A DNA stretch of 34,013 nucleotides from Thermohalobacter berrensis (GTDB lineage Bacteria > Bacillota > Clostridia > Tissierellales > Thermohalobacteraceae), in contig NZ_MCIB01000017.1 of the NCBI RefSeq assembly GCF_003609645.1, forward strand, positions 1-34,013, read 5' to 3'. Positions 20,816 to 21,785 of this stretch are shown here, piece after piece. Both the position numbers and the translations under genes were made by a program. Position 1 is the stretch's first letter. Every line of letters starts with the position of its first letter. Below the pieces are notes generated by a model that worked only from the letters and a program-made list of their open reading frames with translations, had not been told where the DNA came from and made no database searches.

Positions 20816-21038
20816 TTTTAACACCTCTAAGTTAGATTATTTTAACCTCTTTTTATTTATTATTTCTCTATCTTTATCTTCATTAATACTTTATTTTTAC
20901 AAAAGCTTTTATATTTTTTAAAAAACGAATCATTTATAACTCTTATTTTGAATTATATAACAATCTTTATCTAAGTTAAATCTAAATGTCAAGTAACCTA
21001 TATATTTCATATATTAACTATAAAGGAGGTTGTAAATA

Positions 21039-21749
21039 ATGAAAAATCCATATTGGTATTACATGCCAAGGCAAAATCCTATGAAATATTATTCTCAAAA
21101 TAATTATATACCTAAAAATGAAAAAGAAAGGGAATTAGAAATAGAAGGAAAGTTAAAAGGGCCCATAGAAGGTGGGTACTATTGTGATTATTTTGATTTA
21201 GGGGATTCAGCACCAGATTTCACTTTAGAAGGTGTTTTCTGTGGAAACAGGGGAAAATTTACCCTTTCTGATTATAAAGGAAAATGGGTTTTATTATTCT
21301 TTTATGGTTCAGATTTCACATTTGTTTGACCTACTGAACTTGCAGCAGTTGCTGCTAGATATAAAAAATTTAAAGAATTAAATACAGTTGTTTTTGGTAT
21401 AAGTACTGATAGCATTTATTCCCATAAAATATTTACCCAAACCTCACCTTCTGGAAGAAAAATTAATTTCCCATTATTATCTGATAGAACTCAAAAAGTA
21501 TCTAAAGAATACGGTATATTAAACGAAAAAGAAGGTTTTGCTTATAGAGGAGCTTTCATAATTGACCCTGAGGGAACAATTCAAGCTATTATAATTAATC
21601 CTCAGCCTGTTGGTAGAAATATAGATGAAATTTTAAGAATAATAGCAGGTCTTCAATATAATAGAAGAACAGGCTTAGCTGCCCCAGCTGGGTGGAAACC
21701 TGGTGAAAAAGGAATAAAAACTGGATGGGAATACGTTGGAAAATATTAA
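21039..21749 (+). CDS. Selenocysteine-containing AhpC/TSA-family peroxiredoxin (in-frame TGA = Sec97)
   Basis: Reduces hydroperoxides through an active-site selenol. The frame from ATG 21039 (perfect AAAGGAGG site) meets TGA at 21327-21329 exactly at the peroxidatic position, DFTFV-U-PTEL, where the family has Cys, and then runs on without interruption to TAA at 21749: 236 residues. After the TGA all family blocks are intact: [34 protein letters not shown] (conserved Arg170), [16 protein letters not shown] and the C-terminal GWKPGEK. The resolving Cys of the AhpC VCP motif is replaced (A214-A215-P216), and no Cys follows the Sec; only Cys49 and Cys68 precede it. The active-site Pro of PxxxTxxC is Gly90. 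An N-terminal extension of about 55 residues is rich in Tyr, Pro and Asn. A Sec reading fits better than a pseudogene. Gene finders would end it at residue 96. Confidence 0.9.
21327..21358 (+). promoter_or_regulatory. UGA codon and bacterial SECIS-like hairpin
   Basis: Seventeen bases separate the TGA (21327-21329) from the apical loop. The upper stem is GCAGC/GCTGC (21342-21346 with 21351-21355) closing the tetraloop AGTT (21347-21350), which contains the G-U that SelB needs. After a U-U mismatch, two more pairs (CT/AG at 21339-21340 and 21357-21358) extend it. Stem, spacing and loop G fall within the described range for bacterial SECIS elements. Confidence 0.8.
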
Positions 21750-21750
21750 A

Positions 21751-21783
21751 AATAAATGGCAGTCTAAATGACTGCCATTTATT
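21751..21783. terminator. Bidirectional terminator
   Basis: Perfect 14-bp stem (AATAAATGGCAGTC/GACTGCCATTTATT) between the peroxiredoxin stop and the stop of the M18 peptidase gene, with T-rich exits on both strands. Confidence 0.85.
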
Positions 21784-21785
21784 TT

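Follow-up and report, generated by a model that had tools for sequence, protein, structure and literature searches.

A predicted selenocysteine peroxiredoxin of Thermohalobacter berrensis belongs to an all-selenocysteine branch without resolving cysteine or motif proline, with a suggested link to sporulation

An in-frame TGA in a peroxiredoxin gene of Thermohalobacter berrensis raises the question of whether this codon is read as selenocysteine (Sec) and, if so, which kind of peroxidase the gene encodes. The gene (21039..21749, plus strand) lies in a stretch of 34,013 nt, referred to here as the window, which is contig C17 of a 2.76 Mb genome in 40 contigs. It starts with ATG and is preceded by a Shine-Dalgarno sequence recognised by eye (AAAGGAGG, 21022..21029, plus strand). 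Translation with table 11 ends at the sole in-frame TGA (21327..21329, plus strand) and gives a product of 96 aa (21039–21329), exactly the truncation that the original prediction had anticipated from ordinary gene calling. When TGA is taken as Sec, the product has 236 aa with U97, and the frame continues, as had also been predicted, for 139 codons to a normal stop, TAA. An AhpC/Prx1 domain extends from about residue 54. The protein belongs to Pfam AhpC-TSA (PF00578; 141.4 bits, cut-off 26) and also matches 1-cysPrx_C (26 bits, cut-off 21.1), and a PDB sequence search gave 142 matches at E <= 0.001, the top ones among the best 60 of these 142 being Prx1-type peroxiredoxins (best score 181 bits). 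The TxxC/U motif and the conserved Arg are present: T94, the U97 column and R170, which we take to be the catalytic Arg of peroxiredoxins, are invariant in the alignment examined. Translation and alignment with Cys homologues, the latter suggested together with the original prediction, place the TGA at the peroxidatic position (DFTFV-U-PTE), where the Cys relatives carry Cys. The UGA at 21327 within a peroxiredoxin frame is thereby confirmed as a genuine observation.

The distribution of this codon among relatives decides whether it could be an accident. A scan of genome contigs yielded 15 loci, 13 of which group with the window protein and carry TGA at the same codon (13/13); the peptide patterns for these first 13 loci avoided the catalytic codon, and profile A1 held C at that column. 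A class scan of 391 genomes (E <= 1e-55) matched five, each with one TGA (two of clade A and three of clade B, as defined below), and a phylum scan of 398 genomes (E <= 1e-45) matched 101. The 132 peroxiredoxins extracted had Sec in the catalytic column in 84 cases and Cys in 48; removal of L039 and L041 (identical to L054 and L055) and of L147 (cut off) left 81 Sec and 48 Cys rows. In L116, L140, L146 and L148 the UGA is the gene's own stop near the C-terminal end and was not counted as Sec. In the maximum-likelihood tree of these 129 rows, the window protein falls in clade A (25 rows, all Sec, support 99/95), and a second clade, B, comprises 55 rows that are likewise all Sec (100/99). TGA occupies the catalytic codon in all 27 clade A loci read (25 distinct), among which no Cys member was found, so that at the level of aligned sequences clade A appears as an all-Sec branch. 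A pseudogene or a sequencing error would look like this, with a single stop interrupting a gene that is intact in all other respects, but the recurrence of TGA at this codon in every one of the 27 clade loci read excludes both an error and an isolated pseudogene; with the hairpin covariation and the Sec genes described below, this reading is so improbable as to be negligible. Clade A also contains peroxiredoxins from Bacilli, namely L042 of Alteribacillus iranensis, which is flanked by a cytochrome oxidase COX1 gene, and L052, from a plasmid record of Cytobacillus spongiae. Another member, L032, is titled Lutibacter sp. B2, a Bacteroidota genus; this name is probably wrong, because the locus has a clade A peroxiredoxin and its genome (G396) has spoIVA.

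Insertion of Sec depends on a machinery, and the search for selA, selB, selC and selD proposed with the original prediction returned all four, each above its curated cut-off (selA 646 bits, selB 376, selD 406, tRNA-Sec 78). They span about 11 kb of contig C11 (41–52 kb; selD L022, selA L020, selB L006, tRNA-Sec L012), and ARAGORN reports a tRNA-SeC with anticodon tca in this genome. A single in-frame TGA also occurs in selD, which therefore probably encodes a selenoprotein as well. AhpC-TSA matches in the same genome number five, two of them with one TGA. Of 21 genomes with a Sec peroxiredoxin, 20 have a tRNA-Sec match (clade A 14/14, clade B 6/7). The one lacking a match at E <= 1e-9, G114, has a clade B Sec peroxiredoxin (L051) and perhaps an assembly gap; the genome of Clostridium magnum (G404, locus L040) has two equal-scoring tRNA-Sec genes on two contigs.

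The other element expected of a bacterial selenoprotein gene is a SECIS hairpin downstream of the UGA. A candidate lies at 21339..21358 (plus strand), with a core stem of 21343–21347 and 21350–21354 and an apical GU at 21348–21349. Taken alone, the window hairpin folds at −8.9 kcal/mol with a z of only −2.05. The spacing is identical throughout the 25 clade A rows, with the apex G at nucleotide 22 from the U of UGA, and the stem varies among them: pair 21–24 is A-U in 15 rows, C-G in six and G-C in four, pair 18–27 is A-U in 20, G-C in three, C-G in one and something else in one, and pair 17–28 is C-G in 21, G-U in one and something else in three. Pairs 19–26 and 20–25 are uninformative because they are invariant in clade A; columns 18, 21, 24 and 27 are third codon positions. 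In clade A, 96.8% of the cells are paired (82.7% after shuffling), 15 cells are altered on both sides (2.6 after shuffling) and the covariation score is 0.371 (0.086 after shuffling, and at most 0.056 in slid alignments), values reached by none of 500 shuffles that leave the relatedness among rows in place. Two of the five measures are weaker, namely pairs changed on both sides (3; reached in 23/500 shuffles) and further pair types (5; 114/500). A core pair is broken in L060, L061 and L063, and pair 16–29 forms in 15 of the 25 rows. In clade A, synonymous-codon conservation reaches high values downstream of the UGA (z 11.8 at +5, z 10.5 at +8), but it offers weak support for the SECIS because it is equally high at Ser +25 and +28, which is ascribed to the AGY/TCN split, and because the Cys set has z values of 8.6 and 10.1 at two Phe codons; in that set, codons +1 to +3 and +7 are unremarkable (−0.6 to 2.6) and the others from +4 to +9 are not scorable. 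The compensatory wobble changes are those expected of a bacterial SECIS, so that the SECIS-like hairpin claimed at the right spacing in the original prediction gains the support of covariation and can be regarded as a predicted SECIS. In part of clade B, in loci such as L048, L050 and L094, a SECIS-like hairpin was seen by eye a few bases further 3′ (CATAGC..GCTATG).

The frame would be open whatever residue TGA encodes, so that a code change or ordinary read-through without Sec has to be weighed. This is very improbable, since tRNA-Sec, SelA, SelB and SelD are all present, a conserved hairpin follows the codon, and the codon sits precisely at the catalytic position that is Cys in the Cys relatives. 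The window gene is very likely a selenoprotein gene, and on the combined sequence evidence it is practically certain that Sec would be inserted at U97.

If the product is a Sec peroxiredoxin, it remains to be asked whether it is simply the orthologue of a known one. Sec peroxiredoxins are an established family, as the accessible portions of PMC13188914, PMC9312934, PMC1088965 and PMC1794560 indicate. The original prediction had cited Eubacterium acidaminophilum as the precedent for this class; the class itself stands, and the window protein falls short of the PrxU equivalog model NF040737 (188.1 bits, cut-off 270), which PrxU itself matches with 408 bits. PrxU, reportedly described by Sohling and co-workers in 2001 as the Sec peroxiredoxin of Eubacterium (Peptoclostridium) acidaminophilum, corresponds to L053 and to a member of clade B. 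It resembles the window protein in being of Prx1 type, in its peroxidatic Sec, in the absence of a resolving Cys and in the hairpin right after the UGA, and the two are 43.9% identical over residues 53–234. Orthology also draws some support from the tree, where the node separating clade A from the remainder has a support of only 85/44 and a topology that unites clades A and B in one clade is not rejected (AU p 0.37). Against it, besides the failed equivalog match, the best tree separates the two and joins clade B with 23 Cys rows (98/88), the N-terminal tails differ, clade B has a Pro at position −7 from the catalytic residue in 55/55 rows (clade A in 2/25, and Gly in the window protein), and a Cys at −10 from Sec, present in 53/55 clade B rows, is missing from the window protein. 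A simple orthologue of PrxU is therefore an improbable description of this gene. As the PrxU model misses clade A, gene calling with table 11 cuts the window gene at residue 96.

The features that set clade A apart concern two residues around the active site. In typical 2-Cys peroxiredoxins a C-terminal resolving Cys lies in a (V/L)CP motif; the aligned residue of the window protein is Ala (A215, 21681..21683, plus strand). This column is non-Cys in 80 of the 81 Sec rows (clade A 25/25, clade B 55/55) and Cys in 46 of the 48 Cys rows, the exceptions in the latter being the archaeal L043 and L044. The single Sec row with the Cys, L029 (AACPVDW), is a second Sec peroxiredoxin of the source genome (contig C14:8181–8558) and represents a third type (DFTPV-U-STE). 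A further sample, from a class scan at E <= 1e-30 that matched 118 of 391 genomes, added 40 loci: 15 bearing TGA, which were the new ones bar one fragment, and 25 Cys loci taken from across the list. Inspected by eye, six of these Sec loci, L029-like peroxiredoxins of other genomes (L157–L162), have the resolving Cys and nine do not, and among the Cys loci 17 have it and eight, which are Prx6-like, lack it. The idea that Sec caused the loss of the resolving Cys, which the 80/81 count of the first set had favoured, was rejected after these six further Sec peroxiredoxins with the Cys. No rule can thus link Sec to the missing Cys, since L029 and L157–L162 are Sec proteins and keep it, and its absence marks clades A and B and not Sec peroxiredoxins generally. 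Nor can the two clades be counted as independent losses, because their union is not rejected by the AU test mentioned above and a sign test on three independent pairs was not significant. Two other Sec loci of the further sample depart from these patterns: a fourth Sec type is represented by L163, which is Prx6-like and whose catalytic codon is TGA (DFTPV-U-TTE, ATPADW), and in L164, outside the tree, a Cys lies close to where the resolving residue is normally found (LAPCDW).

The second residue is the Pro of PxxxTxxC/U. This corrects the original prediction, which had described the family motifs as intact: the position is Gly90 in the window protein (21306..21308, plus strand). The motif PxxxTxxU is termed highly conserved in the accessible part of PMC13188914. 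At this position, −7 from the catalytic residue, the 25 clade A rows have Gly (12), Ala (9), Ser (2) or Pro (2), and the Thr at −3 is kept in all 25. Pro was found throughout clade B, in 48/48 Cys rows, in L029 and in 39 of the 40 further loci, the exception being L164, a Sec protein with Ser. This pattern points to an active-site make-up of clade A's own. Compared with AhpC and the typical 2-Cys peroxiredoxins of the Prx1 subfamily, the window protein shares the fold and most motifs, with Prx1-type chains as its top structural matches, and differs in having Sec for the catalytic Cys, no Cys in place of that of (V/L)CP and Gly for the motif Pro. Judged from the alignments, two residues that characterise its relatives, namely the resolving Cys and the Pro of the motif, have been lost from clade A.

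How the enzyme would work without these residues can be outlined as follows. SelB and Sec-tRNA would decode the UGA at 21327 through the hairpin just downstream, so that a peroxidase of the Prx1 fold would receive Sec in its peroxidatic position. U97 would be oxidised by peroxide to the selenenic acid, which most likely would be reduced by an outside thiol or a thioredoxin-like donor (a 1-Sec cycle), since the protein lacks the canonical resolving Cys. With Gly in place of the motif Pro, the pocket of the active site probably differs from that of its relatives. The in-frame UGA, the predicted SECIS, the Sec genes, the two missing residues and the all-Sec clade can be read directly from the genomes compared. 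A Sec peroxidase made through UGA and SECIS, lacking the resolving Cys and with a probably altered pocket, is the explanation that best accounts for them and is held with high confidence. A 1-Sec or other non-canonical resolution, with its reductant and pocket, seems a likely further step, and the window enzyme is probably a "1-Sec" peroxidase with an external thiol as reductant. The word "resolving" does not occur in the accessible portions of PMC1088965 and PMC1794560.

A different source of the second thiol would be the N-terminal tail (residues 1–53; 21039..21197, plus strand), whose Cys49 might serve as a substitute reductant in the members that have it. A two-residue mechanism, in which this Cys took over as resolving residue, is suggested by a Cys located 46 to 52 residues before Sec, which occurs in 15 of the 23 clade A rows that no contig end interrupts. 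In the AlphaFold2 model (54 rows; mean pLDDT 85.1, pTM 0.78), the core is confident, residues 1–23 and 44–48 are low and the tail is mostly of low confidence; Cys49 adjoins the stretch 44–48 (pLDDT below 50), which may be mobile. However, the tail Cys is missing in 8 of the 23 rows, including those of the close relatives L032 and L034 (the true start of L059 and L060 being unsure), and the model is a monomer. Recruitment of Cys49 is therefore unlikely as the general mechanism, and reduction by an outside donor is the reading preferred here. The tail is also rich in Tyr, with nine in 53 residues of the window protein and 5 to 10 in most close relatives (two in L035 and three in L040); it is shorter or different in the outer clade members, which have few. 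All 50 Foldseek matches listed were peroxiredoxins, mostly of Prx1 type, and AhpC 4mab, in which the resolving Cys is replaced by Ala, ranked 26 among the matches listed.

The genomic context was searched for hints of function. The shared terminator of the original prediction was recovered as a 15-bp hairpin (21750..21784, no strand assigned; z −8.92) between the gene and a convergent M18 peptidase gene. The order HAD hydrolase, peroxiredoxin, M18 peptidase is common to the window, L030 and L034, with one gene between in L034. The remaining scanned neighbours are unrelated, and the search thus yielded no operon partner. None of the scanned neighbours was a spore gene by Pfam name; a DUF2642 gene lies beside L037.

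Upstream of the window gene, motif scoring placed a sigma-E/K-like −10 element (CATATATTA, 21008..21016, plus strand), with no AC at −35. The sigma-E/K-type consensus used for scoring was AC-N15-17-CATANNNTA. In the first 11 clade A genes, compared with 66 flanking-gene controls, this motif gave p 0.00026 (−10 alone p 0.016; sigma-A p 0.60), and it had been noticed in the same 11 genes. In 11 held-out clade A genes the same score had a mean z of 1.45, compared with 0.11 in 55 clade B genes (p 0.005) and −0.24 in 46 Cys genes (p 0.0003), with no clear difference for sigma-A (p 0.08 to 0.61). The held-out test left aside L054 and L055, which lack the 5′ end, and L060, for which no start could be used, and scored 83 upstream bases (98 in the first test); the starts of L052, L057, L058, L059 and L064 are unsure. 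Scores of at least 6.5 were reached by 9/22 clade A, 4/55 clade B and 2/46 Cys genes. When 120 letter permutations of the motif were ranked, the top two places went to the two that carry the true −10; only the −10 element is supported, because CA at −35 outscores AC. The spore gene spoIVA is present in 24/24 clade A genomes, in 22/30 genomes with clade B only and in 20/26 others (42/56 without clade A; Fisher p 0.0038), in a sample that omits G403 and G405, whose loci duplicate those of G559 and G749, and that includes some incomplete genomes (G786, 72%). The p-values of the promoter and spoIVA comparisons are too good because the genes are related.

These signals suggest a link of clade A with sporulation. 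The window gene may serve spore formation, a possibility to which somewhat less than an even chance is given. A parallel is offered by CotE of C. difficile, a spore-located, sigma-K peroxiredoxin. Unlike the window protein, it has a chitinase domain, and its peroxiredoxin domain would be of a Cys, Prx6-like type. According to the accessible part of PMC3789822, CotE is active both as a peroxiredoxin and as a chitinase and has a sigma-K promoter that was mapped; that of PMC9542656 places it in the outer coat or exosporium. By analogy, a mother-cell or spore-coat peroxidase is proposed. The fullest version, tentative and marginally more doubtful than a role in spore formation as such, is that clade A would be a sporulation-specific 1-Sec peroxidase, expressed in the mother cell and deposited on or in the spore, where it would guard the spore or mature its coat oxidatively; its remodelled site would be the one without motif Pro and resolving Cys, with the Tyr-rich tail in the core group.

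In the literature searched, no description was found of clade A, of its missing resolving Cys and motif Pro or of its sporulation signals. The word "spore" does not occur in the accessible portions of PMC13188914 and PMC9312934, and no link from selenium to spore biology through a Sec peroxiredoxin appeared in the literature listings consulted. Clade A represents a branch of Sec peroxiredoxins with no Cys form found, and the contrast between this branch, which has lost the resolving Cys and the motif Pro, and L029, which keeps both, makes the resolution of the selenenic acid and the role of the Pro testable. If the sporulation link is true, it would tie selenium to spore biology and would offer a physiological explanation of why spore formers, Bacilli like Alteribacillus among them, retain the Sec machinery.
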